From a virus: 64,000 nt of DNA. Made by a program: the position numbers and the translations under genes. The stretch lies in IMG/VR virus record IMGVR_UViG_3300048591_000147, positions 188,001 to 252,000 of that record; one strand, written 5' to 3'. Every line of letters starts with the position of its first letter. Within the stretch, counting starts at the first letter, position 1. Shown piece after piece: positions 3,284-33,737 of this stretch. Under the pieces are notes generated by a model. It was not told the origin of the DNA. It searched no databases and worked only from the letters and a program-made list of their open reading frames with translations.

Positions 3284-6200
3284 TTATAGTTCCACTGCTG
3301 CTGGGCACACACCATCTACAAAGGTTGTAGTTCTTAGGACACCATTAGAAGGTGCTCTAACATTTTGGGTCGCTTGTAGCGCCACCCAAGAGGTTTTAAA
3401 GATGTCCGCATGTTCTCTTTTCAATGACATTGCCGCATGCAAAAATTCAAAGAATATCGCATTCACCTCATCTATCGTAAAATTGTTATAAATGTCATAC
3501 ATCATTAAAACTAATGATGCTTGATCTTCCATATTATAATTCTTAATGAATTCATTTATATCAACGTTTCTAAAATTGAACGTATTATTAACAAGTAATG
3601 AATTGATAATATATAATCCAAGATCCTTATCGATAAATGTCTGTTCTTCACCTAACCCAAATCGCGTGTCTGAGTTGTATAGTTGGTCATATATGAATCT
3701 ATTAATAGTAGGTATCACAACTTCTTGATTACCCTCTTCCGCGTCTGGATTCAAGTATACGACACCATTGACCACTCTCTTACCAATCAAAGACTCTGTT
3801 ATTCTATCCCACAAGAATGCGTCAATCTTGAATAATTGCTTCTCTCTGAATAGTTTCCACTCCCAATGCACATTTTTCAAATATAGTGGTGTGTATATTG
3901 AGTTTGGTCCCGGTAAATTATCACGTAGTGTGAAGTCACGCATAAATCTCAGAGAATATCTATCATCGTCTTTTACCGTGTTCTCTAAACCTTTCACAAC
4001 TAATTGGGTGTATCGATGTGGTAATTCGTATGCATCTTCATCAAACACTGTACCATAGATCAAACCATAACCAAATTCTGGCGTTCGTGGACCCTGTAAA
4101 ATCATATAAGGCGCAGGAATATTTCTTAACTGTTTAGCAGCCTCTTGCATATTCATATATGCGTCGCCAGTTATCGCGATCTTATTTGTTTTGTTTTTCA
4201 CCCAGAAATAGTACACGCTGAATTCTGCTCTAGAAACTGGGTCAATCTTGGTGGTAACTGAGTATGGGAACACCTTTTTATATTCTACACCAGCTTCTAA
4301 TTGCGCCATGGTTGGAGTCACAGCAACTTTTATCAAAGTTAGCATGTCTTGTGGTCTTGGTTTAGCTATTTGCCCGTCCAATTCAACACCATAACAGAAT
4401 TCACTTATGGTATCTGTATCTAGGTCCAGAGTGCCAGCGTACTTACCATTGATATAAGCGTCAACGACACCGTCAATTGCTGGGTTTGTCGGAACTGTAA
4501 ACTGCTGCACTAGCGCGACTATAAAGTCTTCTGTTACATCGACATGTTCTACCCATACTGGATCTTCGTCTGGGTCAGTCTCAGTATTCTTATATAGTTT
4601 ATAGTACGCTGAACCAGATCTTTTCTGATCCTGTAATAAATTGGTATTCTTGGCATCTTTCAGTACAGTCGCGTCCCATTCTGTTGGTGGCACCAATGAC
4701 TCTGTCCATTGATATAAATCTATGCTACCCCAATCGGCCATACTACCCCATTTTAGGATTCTTTCGTTTATATCTGTAAAGATTCTAGCATCATAGTATG
4801 GTATGTAAACCATTTTTGTTGTATCTGACCATACCGTAGATACTTTATCAGCGAGCCATGTAGTCTCAGTCTGAGATACATCCTCATAATTATACACCGC
4901 AACATCACTGTCATTTCTGATATCAATAATAGAATTGGCTACATGATAATGCTGTCCCAACGCTGGATGCCATAATTGGACTCTAGTCACAACGGTCCCC
5001 GCGCGCTTATCAATCAGCGTGGCAGGATTTTGCGCATCATAGTTATATGAAAGAATATAAACGGATAATCCATCTATAGTTCTTGGGTCTGCACCAGCAA
5101 TAGAGTTCATTTGTATCACTCTACCATTTATAAATGAATACTCATACCCTTCAGATAGCTGAACAGTTTCCTCTTTTACAGAATCCCAATATGATATGAT
5201 TACTTTGTCAGCGTGTACTGGTAGTCTCAATACTAATTTGTTATTGATAGACGCAATATCATTTTCAACATTATTCATTATGTTGATCACCTGACTGTCG
5301 AAATAGAATGAGGACTTAGGCTTCAGACTGAATAGCTGATCAGGTTGGTTCCACCATCTCGACAAATCGGTTAAACGCACTGGTTCGAACGTTTCATCTA
5401 ATACCGTATTGTCTGGAGTAACGAACTCAACACGCATTTCTTTTGTTGATACATCTCGCGTAAACAACTTCAATTCTGGATATATCTTCTCTTTATTATC
5501 ACCAAAACAACCAAGTCTATATGCCCAGAATTCATCCACATGTGCATCATCAAATACAGGCTGATTGACAAATGCTTTAATAGCATTATTTGTGCCCTTG
5601 TTCTGTATCATTCCTCTCCAGAACGCAAACTGTGTTTTGTCATTTATTTGTAGATCGTCCATATAATCTCTAGGACCATCATAACCGATAGACTTTCTAG
5701 CGCGTTCAATAATAGGTTTATTTTCTACTATCTTGTAAGTGTCATACAGATATCTGATATTCTCTACACTGTTTTCGATGTTATCAACCAATTTACCATC
5801 TTGTAGTACATAACCGCCAAGGTTTGGACGCAATGTGTACTTGTCTGATTTACTGAACTCGACATAGAATCTAGGAGTTCTAATCCCTAAGAAAGAATCG
5901 AAAATCATTGATCCATCTACTGAGATGTTATTGAATGTTAAGATATGTTCGTATGCATCTAGTAATAATTTGAAACCGGACATATTGACGATTTTCTGAT
6001 TTATCACCACACTGACTTGTTCAGTACCGTTGGTATTTTGTCTCTTAACATACTCAAAGTACTTTGCATTACTGTTTATAATATCTTTCAGCAATGAAAT
6101 CTTAGTTTCTTTATCTTGACGATACATCAATATGGAATCAATGTTTAATATATTTCCATTCTGATCATATATCTTAGGTGTTTCTGTAAAGTAGTAATCG

Positions 6201-20815: not shown

Positions 20816-20843
20816 GCTCATACAACATAAACAAGGACAATTT

Positions 20844-21797
20844 ATGACTCCAGAACAATTCAAGGAAAGTATAAAAAGTGGAAGGCTTATTACAGATACT
20901 CCAGACGAAGTAACAAAAGAAGAGATAGTCGTACAACCAACAATTGACACCCCAATCCTAAAAACAGAAAAACCAAAATCAGACAAAATCAATCCGTTAC
21001 TAAAAAAAATACAGCGCATTCCCGGTGAAACATTCAAATTGCCTAGTCGAGGTATCTTTTATAAAAATGACGAACTAGATGAAGATGTGGTTGATGGTGA
21101 GGTTGTTATATTTCCAATGACTGGATATGATGAGTTATTGTTCAAATCACCGGATGCACTATTCCAAGGCACTGCGATAGAAAACGTTATTAGGCGCTGC
21201 GTACCAGCGATTAAGAACCCATTGGCATTATCTGCGAATGATATTGACTTTCTACTTACCTGTATAAGAAAAGTTACTTATGGTGAAAACATCACCATTA
21301 AGTTCAACTGTTATTCTGAAAAATGTAAAGAAAAGAATGTAGAGCGTGAATATGATGTATCTTTGTTGAAATTCATCTCACAAAGTAAACAGATCACACA
21401 GAATGAAATTGATAAACTTACATTCGTATTAGGCGACTTATATACTGTTAAGTTACGTCCAGCGAAGATGATCGACCTTATTGGAATATATCAGAATAGC
21501 ATTCCAGAATATGATGATAAGTTCGAAGCTCAATATACCAATCATGTGAAAGTATTGGTTTCTATTATAGAAAGTGTTGATGACGTTGATGATAAAGATA
21601 ACATTATTGAATGGATTAATGCGCTTCCGGCAAACATGGCTGATAATTTACTGAAGCAGATTCACAATTTAAACAGTTGGGGTGTGGAGTTCAAATATTC
21701 CATCACTTGTAAGGACTGTAAGAAGGCAATGGAAGTTACAACTCCAATGAACCCATTACATTTTTTTATGAAACCCTCCGACTTCGTGACCCCGTAA
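20844..21797 (+). CDS. 26: Baseplate hub assembly protein, gp26-like
   Basis: 317 aa. The core matches the T4 baseplate-protein family: FKLPSRGIFYKNDELDEDV, PMTGYDELLFKSPDALF, VIRRCVPAIKNP and DIDFLLTCIRKVTYG in order. Two Cys pairs (CYSEKC and CKDCKK) could bind a metal. An AAGGA ribosome site precedes the ATG. The 3' end has a run of seven T at 21761-21767 read as T TTT TTT, followed by a stem, and the -1 frame leads into the next ORF, so a longer 386-residue fusion may be made (see findings). Confidence 0.8.
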   Translation: MTPEQFKESIKSGRLITDTPDEVTKEEIVVQPTIDTPILKTEKPKSDKINPLLKKIQRIPGETFKLPSRGIFYKNDELDEDVVDGEVVIFPMTGYDELLFKSPDALFQGTAIENVIRRCVPAIKNPLALSANDIDFLLTCIRKVTYGENITIKFNCYSEKCKEKNVEREYDVSLLKFISQSKQITQNEIDKLTFVLGDLYTVKLRPAKMIDLIGIYQNSIPEYDDKFEAQYTNHVKVLVSIIESVDDVDDKDNIIEWINALPANMADNLLKQIHNLNSWGVEFKYSITCKDCKKAMEVTTPMNPLHFFMKPSDFVTP

Positions 21798-21828
21798 AAA
21801 CACAACAGATGTTCAGGGATTTGGAGGG
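21761..21828 (+). promoter_or_regulatory. Candidate programmed -1 ribosomal frameshift site
   Basis: The T7 run at 21761-21767 is in the X XXY YYZ phase relative to gp26. After six bases, CCCTCCGA (21774-21781) can pair with TTGGAGGG (21821-21828), an 8-bp stem with one G-U pair. The -1 frame continues open through the gp51-like ORF to 22003. Confidence 0.6.
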
Positions 21829-22003
21829 ACAGGCGACAAGACTTATCGACAGTTTTGTTGAACTATCATTTTACATGCGTGGCAGTGTTCAATATGAAGA
21901 TTTCTTTAATATAACACCAGCCGAACGATCTAGAATGTTTGATTTTGTATCAAAACGGCTGGAGCCAGAAATGAAGAAACATATGCAAGTGTGTGTATAC
22001 TAA
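21809..22003 (+). CDS. Baseplate hub assembly protein, gp51-like (possibly a -1 frameshift product)
   Basis: 64 aa if started at the ATG at 21809, but no ribosome binding site precedes that ATG. The sequence (VELSFYMRGSVQYEDFFNITPAERSRMF) resembles the small gp51/tail-chaperone-type proteins encoded next to gp26 in T4-like phages. The frame is open upstream through the gp26 3' end to the slippery T7 run. It may therefore be made mainly as the C-terminal extension of gp26, in the manner of G/GT-type tail chaperones. Function by name is inferred from position and size. Confidence 0.6.
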   Translation: MFRDLEGQATRLIDSFVELSFYMRGSVQYEDFFNITPAERSRMFDFVSKRLEPEMKKHMQVCVY

Positions 22004-22004
22004 A

Positions 22005-22679
22005 ATGACTACTATAACCATAGATCCATCCATATCATGCACTGCCATGGTAATAGACGACAAAAAATTTATATTTACTAATAAATCATACGCATCCACC
22101 AAAACAGGACTGAATAAATGGTTTACAAAGTGTAGTGATTACATACATTATGAGATTCTGGATGACCTTCCGAAGTGTGATGACTATTCCGTATCAGAAA
22201 TTGAAAAGATAAAGCGATATAAATCTATCGCTACATCTATTCTGGGGACCATCACCAAAAATATAAAGTCAAGCCATACTTTGAAAATATATATTGAGGG
22301 TTACAGCTATTCTTCTATAGCTGGCCCCATTATAGACTTGGTTACCCTTGGCACATTGATCCGGGATAAATGCATTAGTATTGCAGATGAAGTCATTATA
22401 GTATCGCCAAAAACTTTAAAGATTGAAACCTGTAAGTTCGCATATGCGCCGATACAAGTTAAAAAGAAGACAGAATATCGAAATAATAGTGGAGTATCGG
22501 GTGGTAAATTTACCAAAACTGAAATGTGTCAGTCACTTCTTGATAGTAAACTAGATTGTGAATGGGTGACCTTTCTCAGAGATAATAAAGAAGAGATTCT
22601 TAAAAACAAGTCAATTCCAAAACCAATAGAAGATATTAATGATGCTAAATTAATGTTTGAGATCTTTAAAGATAAATAA
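22005..22679 (+). CDS. RuvC-like Holliday-junction resolvase/nuclease
   Basis: 224 aa, starting at the ATG one base after the upstream stop rather than at a GTG four codons earlier. It has the RNase H-fold resolvase pattern: ITIDPSISCTAMVI (Asp7), KIYIEGYSYSS (Glu98) and EDINDAKLMFEI (Asp210/Asp213), spaced like the catalytic acidic residues of RuvC-type and poxvirus-type resolvases. It could resolve branched DNA before packaging, the job of gp49 (endonuclease VII) in T4. It is embedded in a late tail-gene transcript. Confidence in the fold is moderate. Confidence 0.62.
   Translation: MTTITIDPSISCTAMVIDDKKFIFTNKSYASTKTGLNKWFTKCSDYIHYEILDDLPKCDDYSVSEIEKIKRYKSIATSILGTITKNIKSSHTLKIYIEGYSYSSIAGPIIDLVTLGTLIRDKCISIADEVIIVSPKTLKIETCKFAYAPIQVKKKTEYRNNSGVSGGKFTKTEMCQSLLDSKLDCEWVTFLRDNKEEILKNKSIPKPIEDINDAKLMFEIFKDK
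22671..22678 (+). promoter_or_regulatory. Late promoter box
   Basis: GATAAATA overlapping the 3' end of the RuvC-like gene, 23 bases before the ATG at 22701. Confidence 0.55.
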
Positions 22680-30039: not shown

Positions 30040-30065
30040 TGCATAATTAATGGGATTTGTATTTA

Positions 30066-33000
30066 ATGGACTTTAACGATAAAGATATTTTGAAAAAACT
30101 AATGGAGGCAGTTACTAAGCTTGCTGGTAATAGTCAATATTCAAGACCATCGGCTAACTCAGGGTCTTCAGCAGAAGACGCTTTAGAAAAATATCAAAAG
30201 TTTCTAGTTGAAGAAACTACGCTGGCCGGAAAATATCAAAAAGCATTCTCCAATGGGTTATTTAGAACCTTGGCCGGTTTACCAAAAACATTGAACAAGG
30301 TTTATGATCAGATCGAAGCTGACTTGCGCACCAATAATGACGCCATAAACAAGATACAGAAGCAAACAATAGAAAGTGTTAAAGCTCACAAACTGAATAA
30401 TAAAGAGATAACTAAACTAGCTCTGGAGACTGGTAAGATATCTGACGATATTAGCAAACACTCTAAAGCTGTTGGTGTTAATACTGCATTACAAAAACTT
30501 TCTAATGAGAAATTGAAGAACGCTACAGAAAAGCATAATGCCGCATTATCAGAACAGGCCAGCTTGATAAAGAAGCGATCAGAAGCAACTCATAAAATGC
30601 TTAAAGAAACCCTAGCCGATGAACTTAAAAAAATCGGGAGCGTGTTAAAACAGTCTGCCGCCGATCTTAAAGAATCAAGTGATGATGACGCAGAGATAAG
30701 ACGGAAAATATCAGAAAGTGCTAATGAGCTTCGTGACTCCCTTGATTTGATATCAAATAGTAAAATATTTGATAATCTTGATAAGCATGATCAGGATGCT
30801 ATAAAAGATTTTATAAAGAGTGGTTCAGTTGAAATGACTGACGCTGTTGTATCAGCGATGAAGAAATTTGAAGAGATGTCGCCAGCTATCCAAAATACTT
30901 TGAAATCATTGGTTAATAAATCGGTAGAACATATTAGAACTGGTGTTAGTGACATATCATCAAAATTGCACCGTGCCGGCGCAATGGCAGTTGTGTCTGG
31001 CAAGGGTATTTTAGATTCATATAGAGCACAATTAAGTGCTAACTTGATTGAATCAACGCCAACTTCCATTATGGGATATGGTATGGATGCCGGTGAACAA
31101 GCAGATATAATTAAAGGGTTTGCAAGAGAAATAGCATCAATCAGTGGCACTAATAATATGTCAAAGGCATATAACGAGAGTGTTACGTTATCCGATTTAC
31201 ATGACACCGCTAAATTGTATGGGTTGACTGGTAAAGCTGCACAAGAATTAGCTTTACAAAGCGTTCGGACTGTTAATCAAATGGGTGCTGGTACGTCTGG
31301 CACAAGTACATCCACCACTGCTAAAGCACTTATGCAGCAAATGTCGTCATCTGCGGCTTATTTACAAACTGATAAAGCGGCTTTTGCTCAAGACACTATA
31401 AACGAGTTACAGAGTGGCATATATGATAGTGAGATTACTCGCCTACGCATGCAAGGAAAAACTGGTGCCGATCTTTCCAAAAACATGATACAAAACATAA
31501 CTGCACTTAAAGGGAACACGGTACAATTAGGATTTAGTAATTCGTATGCGCAACAATTATTACAAAATTCCATGAATGCCAAATTCGGTGGACTTAGTGA
31601 ACTCATTAATCGTAAAGTGGCCTCTGGGATGGGCGGCCAAATAATACCAAATATGCTTGGTGGCAACGTTGCTAAAGAAAAGATGGATGCTTTTAGAAAA
31701 TATCAAGAGGGTGGTGGGTTCTCGGCACTAAAAACTCCTGAAGAACAAACTGCATATTTACAGCTTACACAAGATTTTGCTACGGCATATAACAAGGCAT
31801 ATGAAGCCAGTAATAATGCACCCGCTAACAGCATCGAAAAACGAGAAGCTGATAGTAAATTGATGGCGCTTGGTGCACAAATAGAAATATTACGTGCAAG
31901 AAACATTGACATGGCATCTCCAGAAACAATGTCAGCAGCGCTAAGATCGGGATTTGTACAAGAATCTATAACCAATCAAACTACTAAAGATTTTAGTCCA
32001 GTGGTAAACGTAAATAAAGAATCCGTGGCTGCTGCTGGAAGTATTGAGAGTTTTAACAATACTATGGGAGTATTTGAACAGCGATTCCTTGAATTATCAG
32101 AATGGGCAAGAGGTATTGCCAACAATCCATTTGGAAATCTAGCTGGAGCGGCAATTGGTGGTATTGGTAGTATGGTCGGTAGTGCTGTTGGTACTGGACT
32201 TACAATGTGGTTAATGGGAGCCGGTGGAGTTGCAGCGACAGCAGCTATAGGCACTGTAGTTGCAGGCGCATTAACAATTACAGGAATCGTGGCAGCAGTT
32301 GGTTTAGTAGCGTATTCAGTAGATACAATATTTGATTCTTTTAAAACACTGTTGAAATGGTATGGAGAGGACAGAACAAGAGAAGAAGAAGAGAGAAAAA
32401 GAGTTGCGGCAAGATATGAAGCAAGTAAAGCTAGAGAGGCATCAGGGCAGCCAGCAGTTCTTGGAGATATGTATAGAAAAGTATTCGAAGAGGCTACCGG
32501 AAAAACGCTTACTAAAGATGATGATTTTAGTTATGATGGTAAGGGTAGAATGACATATAATGGTGAAGTTGTCAGTGATGCAGATAGAATAAAGGTAGAA
32601 AATCTTGCGTATTCCAAACAAATTGCAAAAACTGGTAATAGCGACAGATTAACAGGTGCTCCATTAGAACAGCGTTCCAGAATATTAAGAGAAGAAGAGG
32701 CAGCATACCGTAATTGGAGAACTAAAGAAGTAACTCCTGTTATGCCATCTGGCGCACAGCGAACTGGCGGTAGAGGAAAAGCATTAACACCTGTAGCGCC
32801 CATGGTTAACCCAACACCTACCGCCGTTCCATCACCTATATCTAGTTCCGCACCATCAACACCAACTATTGCGCCGCAAACCTCTGCCATCGCAAACACA
32901 TCAGGCTTGACAGATGTACAAGCTAGCTTAGTAAACTCGTTGGCATCACAAGGCATAACAGACCCAAATAAAGTTTCTAATATATTGGCACAGGTAGAAG

Positions 33001-33737
33001 GTGAATCAAAATTTGTGCCGAAGAGTGAGAATATGAATTATTCCGCACAGCGACTAATGGAAGTGTTTCCATCACACTTCTCATCACTTGCGGATGCACA
33101 ATCAGTAGTAGATCAGGGTCAGGAAGCAATAGGTAATAGAGTTTATGGTGGTAGAAACGGTAACGCTCAGAATGAAGGATATAAGTATAGAGGAAGAGGA
33201 TTTATACAATTATCAAACAAAGATAATTATGAGATGTTCGGAAAAATAATAGGCGAAGATTTAGTAAATAATCCAGATCTAGCGAACGATCCTGTTATCG
33301 CGTCAAAGATAATGGCAGCCTATTTCAAACAACGGGAAAACACTGGTAAATATGATTTAACAGATATCAATTCCACAGGAAAGGCAGTTGGTTATGCAAC
33401 TGGTCCGAAAGAGACTGCCCATCGTGCCTCAATCGCAGAACAATTTAAGAGTAAACTAAGTCTTCAGTCAAATGTGACAGGATCTATCAATAGCAATCTT
33501 GCAAATCCCGCTAATAATCCAGTCACCATGTGGAGCATGATCGCTAATACATTGTCAACTGGTAATTCTGCATTGGTAAGCGGTATAGATAAGCTTAACG
33601 ATGGCATACAAACTAATAATAAATTAACTGGCATAACTGCTGCAAACACAAATCCAGAATTGAATCGCAAACCAGCTACGGAAAACGAGCAAAAGCCTTC
33701 TTACCGAGCGGGTAATAGACAAGTAGCCGCGACATAA
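30066..33737 (+). CDS. Tape measure-type protein with C-terminal GH19 lysozyme/chitinase-like domain
   Basis: 1223 aa, with the ATG at 30066 preferred over a TTG three codons upstream. Residues 40-330 are charged and helical (coiled-coil type). About 690-755 is a long hydrophobic Gly/Ala segment (GNLAGAAIGGIGSMVGSAVG onward), typical of tape measure proteins that insert in the membrane. About 900-960 is a Pro/Thr linker. About 965-1130 reads as a GH19-like domain: AQVEGESKFVPKSE, then GYKYRGRGFIQLSNKDNY. It sets tail length and probably opens peptidoglycan at injection. The gp5-like spike lacks a lysozyme domain, so this domain may replace it. Confidence 0.78.
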   Translation: MDFNDKDILKKLMEAVTKLAGNSQYSRPSANSGSSAEDALEKYQKFLVEETTLAGKYQKAFSNGLFRTLAGLPKTLNKVYDQIEADLRTNNDAINKIQKQTIESVKAHKLNNKEITKLALETGKISDDISKHSKAVGVNTALQKLSNEKLKNATEKHNAALSEQASLIKKRSEATHKMLKETLADELKKIGSVLKQSAADLKESSDDDAEIRRKISESANELRDSLDLISNSKIFDNLDKHDQDAIKDFIKSGSVEMTDAVVSAMKKFEEMSPAIQNTLKSLVNKSVEHIRTGVSDISSKLHRAGAMAVVSGKGILDSYRAQLSANLIESTPTSIMGYGMDAGEQADIIKGFAREIASISGTNNMSKAYNESVTLSDLHDTAKLYGLTGKAAQELALQSVRTVNQMGAGTSGTSTSTTAKALMQQMSSSAAYLQTDKAAFAQDTINELQSGIYDSEITRLRMQGKTGADLSKNMIQNITALKGNTVQLGFSNSYAQQLLQNSMNAKFGGLSELINRKVASGMGGQIIPNMLGGNVAKEKMDAFRKYQEGGGFSALKTPEEQTAYLQLTQDFATAYNKAYEASNNAPANSIEKREADSKLMALGAQIEILRARNIDMASPETMSAALRSGFVQESITNQTTKDFSPVVNVNKESVAAAGSIESFNNTMGVFEQRFLELSEWARGIANNPFGNLAGAAIGGIGSMVGSAVGTGLTMWLMGAGGVAATAAIGTVVAGALTITGIVAAVGLVAYSVDTIFDSFKTLLKWYGEDRTREEEERKRVAARYEASKAREASGQPAVLGDMYRKVFEEATGKTLTKDDDFSYDGKGRMTYNGEVVSDADRIKVENLAYSKQIAKTGNSDRLTGAPLEQRSRILREEEAAYRNWRTKEVTPVMPSGAQRTGGRGKALTPVAPMVNPTPTAVPSPISSSAPSTPTIAPQTSAIANTSGLTDVQASLVNSLASQGITDPNKVSNILAQVEGESKFVPKSENMNYSAQRLMEVFPSHFSSLADAQSVVDQGQEAIGNRVYGGRNGNAQNEGYKYRGRGFIQLSNKDNYEMFGKIIGEDLVNNPDLANDPVIASKIMAAYFKQRENTGKYDLTDINSTGKAVGYATGPKETAHRASIAEQFKSKLSLQSNVTGSINSNLANPANNPVTMWSMIANTLSTGNSALVSGIDKLNDGIQTNNKLTGITAANTNPELNRKPATENEQKPSYRAGNRQVAAT

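Follow-up and report, generated by a model that had tools for sequence, protein, structure and literature searches.

Frameshifted tail chaperone genes are already known, T4-like phages included. Vladimirov, Gautam and Davidson (2022, Virology 566:9-15) reportedly found conserved frameshifting in several T4-like groups, and T4 itself is said there to use the separate genes 26 and 51. Phage lambda uses a -1 shift to set the ratio of gpG to gpGT, which both act as chaperones for the tape measure protein, and T4 is listed as the exception (PMC5009743). For T4, gp26 and gp51 are classed among the hub assembly chaperones; the latter is essential and absent from the particle, and its function is given as unknown (PMC3004832). 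According to the PRFect paper, which cites Vladimirov et al. 2022, some T4-like phages have a long fused gene besides a short one, and the Adele paper (PMC12846349) credits the same authors with poly-T slip sites in T4-like TAC-N genes. A conserved -1 shift at the 3′ end of TAC-N, on the poly-T slip site GTTTTT, is likewise described in the Vandenendeviridae/Andersonviridae (phage Adele, PMC12846349), which are phage families other than that of the locus examined here. This locus adds one more example, and the suggestion in the original prediction that such a fusion was undescribed for T4-like hub proteins does not hold, since chaperone genes of T4-like phages were published in 2022 (Vladimirov et al., as cited in later papers).

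The window, which is the whole stretch of DNA that was analysed, comprises 64,000 nucleotides (positions 188,001 to 252,000 of the 314,956-base IMG/VR virus record IMGVR_UViG_3300048591_000147), and the matches of its portal, major head, protease and baseplate genes to phage families are consistent with a T4-like jumbo phage. A gp26-like gene lies at 20844-21797 on the + strand, as do all other window features given below, and its ATG is preceded by AAGGA at 20833-20837. Its zero-frame product, the 317-aa short form (TAC-N), belongs to the family PF12322 (E 1.8e-16, 60.9 bits against a curated cut-off of 24.5) and matches phrog_150 (6e-18). A profile search of the virus record found this single PF12322 gene, so a T4-style second copy was rejected. 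Two pairs of cysteines are also conserved in the short form (C156/C161 and C289/C292), and may form a zinc site close to the junction.

At its 3′ end, the gene reads CAT TTT TTT ATG AAA CCC TCC GAC TTC GTG ACC CCG TAA in the zero frame, which places a slippery heptamer of the X XXY YYZ type, T TTT TTT, in phase at 21761-21767 over the conserved Phe307-Phe308. It is followed by the 6-nt spacer ATGAAA (21768-21773) and by a putative stimulator stem, in which the 5′ arm CCCTCCGA (21774-21781) can form 8 bp with the 3′ arm TTGGAGGG (21821-21828) around a loop of 39 nt (21782-21820). The -1 frame is free of stops from 21722, ahead of the slip site, as far as the TAA at 22001-22003, and its product from the T7 run onwards would be FF-YETLRLRDPVKTQQMFRDLEGQATRLIDSFVELSFYMRGSVQYEDFFNITPAERSRMFDFVSKRLEPEMKKHMQVCVY. 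The extension encoded in this frame (21767-22003, 78 aa), which homology and AlphaFold2 indicate to be a helical TAC-C or gp51 C-terminal-like domain, would give a fusion of 308 + 78 = 386 residues. The run and its phase, the spacer, stem and loop, the open frame and the size of the fusion were thus all as the original prediction had described them. The next gene encodes a RuvC-like resolvase (21993-22679, phrog_159 4e-8), whose likely start is the ATG at 22006.

The combination of these features is rare in the window, to which this control was confined. Among its 81 stop-to-stop frames of at least 100 aa, six have an in-phase XXXYYYZ heptamer within the last 22 codons and 12 have a -1 frame that stays open for at least 150 nt beyond the stop, and the gp26-like gene is the only one to have both (1/81).

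The slip site is conserved across distant relatives. In the first five, all isolates with a protein identity of 28-41% (XacN1, RAS14, MIJ3, Atu_ph07 and Phosso), the conserved Phe-Phe likewise carries an in-phase TTTTTTT or TTTTTTC, and the -1 frame is open. The search of IMG/VR yielded 471 relatives, of which 80 were kept, and in nearly all of the 88 sequences examined in total the heptamer is in phase at this Phe-Phe and the -1 frame is open past the stop. The exceptions are L019, which reads G TTT TTT, the truncated or broken L055 and L057, and two sequences in which Leu-Phe replaces Phe-Phe: L041, which keeps T TTT TCA, and L037 (IMGVR 3300002055, 3346-3364), which has no obvious slip site and yet an open and conserved -1 frame. 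After removal of near-duplicates, the 63 non-redundant sequences have T TTT TTT in 39 cases, T TTT TTC in 21 and other sites in three. A T precedes the run in 60 of the 63, where the codon use of these genes for the residues concerned predicts 28.9 (log10 P about -22, an optimistic value, as these statistics ignore phylogeny), and the first of the two Phe residues is encoded by TTT in 61 of the 63, while TTT makes up 62% of the Phe codons elsewhere in these genes. As these constraints fall on synonymous positions, they concern the RNA and not the protein.

The RNA downstream of the slip site is likewise constrained, which is clear across the family and weak for the window alone, where the predicted fold (-18.5 kcal/mol, z -1.25) is unremarkable by its energy. 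In the relatives, the 75 nt after the heptamer have a mean z of -1.93 relative to dinucleotide shuffles, with 48% below -2, as compared to -0.25 and 6% for other stretches of gp26 in the same genes (p 4e-14 for the difference); these p-values are optimistic, because related sequences are not independent. Perfect helices of at least 7 bp that begin at an offset of 6 nt are present in 16 sequences against 0.5 expected in shuffles, and any other offset occurs in at most four, although many relatives have no such helix at offset 6. The arms of these helices differ from one sequence to another (CCCTCCGA/TTGGAGGG, CCATCAAGTCC/GGACTTGATGG, CGCTGAAATC/GATTTCAGCG, GGCTCTTTGT/ACAAAGAGCC and GGGCAATTAG/CTAGTTGCCC), and therefore it is the pairing and its position that are kept rather than the sequence. 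Hence, the alignment check put forward with the original prediction, namely that run, spacer and stem be conserved in related phages, came out in its favour, both for the run (60/63) and for the helices at offset 6 (16 against 0.5). A covariation count on the subset with a CCCTC stem had two pairing registers one base apart and was dropped, the helix-offset test with shuffles being used. An Rfam search returned one sub-threshold chance match and nothing else.

The downstream reading frame could also be entered without any frameshift, if the 64-residue ORF that begins with the first -1-frame ATG (21809-21811) were a separate gene, translated by coupling or by re-initiation after the stop at 21797. 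This ATG lies only 12 nt past the gp26 stop, small ORFs are annotated at this place in XacN1 (ORF316), RAS14, Munch and 121Q, and in some relatives a start codon is found within a few codons of the slip. However, inspection of the region upstream of it, CCCGTAAAAACACAA, found no Shine-Dalgarno sequence, as had been noted originally, and among the relatives the first -1-frame start codon varies in position and kind or is absent, ribosome-binding sites not being conserved: MIJ3 has none, and several others have none before codon 40. The -1 frame is moreover coding ahead of its usual first ATG, as judged from the substitutions in codons 3-13 between pairs of relatives, where mismatches at third positions (252) are about twice as many as those at first (124) and second positions (122). 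In the tblastn comparison with XacN1 (4e-8), the match starts immediately behind the slip, at residue 1. Coding before the ATG, homology from the slip onwards and scattered start codons would be hard to reconcile with separate initiation, which also leaves the conserved T run and its phase unexplained; we consider it very unlikely, and the ATG at 21809 is most likely an internal Met codon.

RNA polymerases are able to slip on T runs, and the addition or loss of a U within the T7 run would provide some mRNAs that encode the fusion in a single frame, and hence the same products. This would, however, not account for the 21 of 63 relatives in which the run is T6 followed by C, and slippage of the polymerase is blind to phase, while the zero-frame phase of the heptamer and the constant distance of 6 nt to the stem are ribosomal signatures, so that we regard transcriptional slippage as slightly more improbable still. 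Since homopolymers are prone to error and the sequence comes from an IMG/VR virus record, one continuous gene might also have been split by a missing or extra T during sequencing or assembly. This is refuted by the recurrence of the same break in independently sequenced isolate genomes (XacN1, RAS14, MIJ3, Atu_ph07, Phosso and RaK2, and also BF, Munch, 121Q, S-PM2, P-SSM2, KVP40 and others), many isolates having only T6C, and we give such an error next to no credence.

Taken together, the conserved slip site, phase, spacer and stem, and the -1 frame that is open and coding beyond the zero-frame stop, strongly support a -1 frameshift of the lambda G/GT type, as originally proposed, and we put the probability that a programmed -1 ribosomal frameshift makes a short and a long chaperone form from this gene at roughly 0.92. 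Most ribosomes would read gp26 to the stop at 21797 and produce the 317-aa TAC-N. In a minority of cases, the ribosome would be held up by the stem 6 nt beyond the run while two Phe-tRNAs occupy T TTT TTT, slip back by one base and read the -1 frame to 22003, giving the 386-aa long form (TAC-NC). By analogy with lambda G/GT, the common N-domain may bind the tape measure protein and the extension may recruit tail tube subunits, with the rate of the shift setting the ratio of short to long form.

We compared the two forms with gp26 and gp51 of T4, which has two PF12322 genes. This family covers the full length of both gp26 (208 aa, 8.8e-64) and gp51 (249 aa, 3.9e-52), which on sequence comparison are paralogues, gp51 being a gp26-like protein with about 50 additional C-terminal residues. 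These residues align with the -1 domains of T4-like phages that have a single copy of the gene (a 27-letter stretch against YYKINFALMQHHKYSLTELENMMPWERE; hhalign 2.2e-10), and these domains in turn align with those of the jumbo phages (1.6e-6), while the direct comparison of jumbo -1 domains with gp51 gives only 1.6e-4 (probability 51). In hmmsearch, the single-copy T4-like -1 domains retrieve T4 gp51 at 2e-6 (best shuffled decoy 0.42), and jumbo and T4-like domains combined retrieve it at 0.0058 (best decoy 0.059), with better values for relatives of gp51. Pfam and PHROGs searched with the window's own -1 domain gave no match. The C-terminal extension is thus homologous to that of gp51, and since gp51 is a gp26 paralogue with such a C-terminus, it is the whole 386-residue fusion that would be the counterpart of gp51, and not the downstream ORF, which the original prediction had called gp51-like. 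In another gp51-like gene (L123, IMGVR 2974754850), stops are met when it is translated to its end in the expected frame.

T4 would therefore have the same short/long pair of the same family, encoded in two genes where the window has one gene and a frameshift. In whole-record searches, a single PF12322 gene was found in the genomes of seven jumbo phages (XacN1, RAS14, MIJ3, Atu_ph07, Phosso, RaK2 and BF) and in ten further records (S-PM2, P-SSM2, KVP40, Aeh1, Cr30, phiM12, phiM9, Munch, 121Q and GXN1), and two were found in T4 and in RB43. Of the 18 single-gene records, the window's included, 17 combine an in-phase TTTTTT[TCG] with a -1 extension, and in GXN1 the extension is +1, whereas no T-run heptamer with an open -1 extension was found in T4 or RB43. 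A single frameshifted gene and a pair of genes without frameshift are thus alternatives, which is the pattern predicted by a functional short/long pair. T4 genes 26 and 51 were also considered as a frameshift pair, which was rejected as they lie on opposite strands.

Coding potential and comparison thus give a short and a long form sharing an N-domain, which probably work like the tail assembly chaperones gpG and gpGT of lambda, although the window differs from lambda in its T TTT TTT slip site and in that the gene does not adjoin that of the tape measure protein. The candidate for the latter (30057-33737) is about 8 kb away, and hence the gp26-like gene is not in the position that is usual, if not strictly defining, for these chaperones. 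The 1226-aa product of this candidate, encoded upstream of the portal gene, has an endolysin-like domain at residues 939-1108 (phrog_181, 3e-42); its length and position suggest that it is the tape measure protein, and it would be the client of the chaperones. The homologues in SP-15 (Bacillus) and LIS04 (Listeria) do occupy the classical chaperone position, flanked by the genes for the tail tube and the tape measure protein. This synteny and the listing of the T4 proteins as assembly chaperones (PMC3004832) speak for chaperones rather than the structural hub proteins that had been assumed, a function that is well supported but inferred. AlphaFold2 models, built on alignments of the window and IMG/VR rows, reached a pLDDT of 87 for the window's gp26 and 84 for the -1 extension. 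The best PDB match of the gp26 model was the HK97 tail assembly chaperone 2ob9 (chains A and B at ranks 1 and 4), which is not significant (E 1.7, probability 0.38), and PHROG chaperone matches were weak (E about 0.01). The fold search with the -1 domain gave nothing below 1e-3, its insignificant matches including the Moogle tape measure chaperone and a gp51-type protein of ZZ1.

These results back T4 gp26 and the essential, long unexplained gp51 as tail assembly chaperones, and make a requirement for a given ratio of the two testable. They also imply that, in jumbo phages such as RaK2, 121Q, Munch and XacN1, two routinely mis-annotated ORFs ('baseplate hub subunit' and 'hypothetical protein') would be one frameshifted chaperone gene.

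A related form, Thornevirus-like (L100, L126, L127 and L131-L161), is found in Streptococcus phage GXN1, Bacillus phage SP-15, Listeria phage LIS04 and uncultured IMG/VR relatives. It shares homology with the -1 clade in both the N-domain (hhalign 4.9e-24) and the C-domain (6.4e-8), and the extension is in the +1 frame in all 26 members, which are these three phages and 23 non-redundant IMG/VR loci, continuing for 130-274 nt past the stop. The gene end is mostly GA[AG] TT[TC] TTT C.., with a base other than T before the run in 25 of the 26, and TTT C, on which tRNA-Phe can slide from UUU to UUC, is present in 20 of the 26. Some members lack it, such as LIS04 (TTA TTT AAT CCC A), and may shift elsewhere.

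The long form of PF12322 thus comes about in different ways: by a -1 shift on T TTT TT[TC] in the window, the jumbo phages and the cyanophages, by way of a +1 extension, mostly at TTT C, in the SP-15-type phages of Bacillus, Listeria and Streptococcus and their relatives, and by gene duplication in T4 and RB43. On balance, we favour the reading that the three routes are exchangeable and all act at this Phe-Phe position, with the register of the T-rich run deciding the direction of the shift. PF12322 would then be one family that appears to meet a single need for stoichiometry by a -1 shift, a +1 shift or gene duplication, and we consider the switch of frameshift direction within one chaperone family the most interesting result of the analysis. 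In RB43 (64622-65903; L097, L109 and L114), the gp51-like and gp26-like paralogues lie in tandem on one strand, while those of T4 are divergent, and the tandem arrangement fits an origin by tandem duplication.
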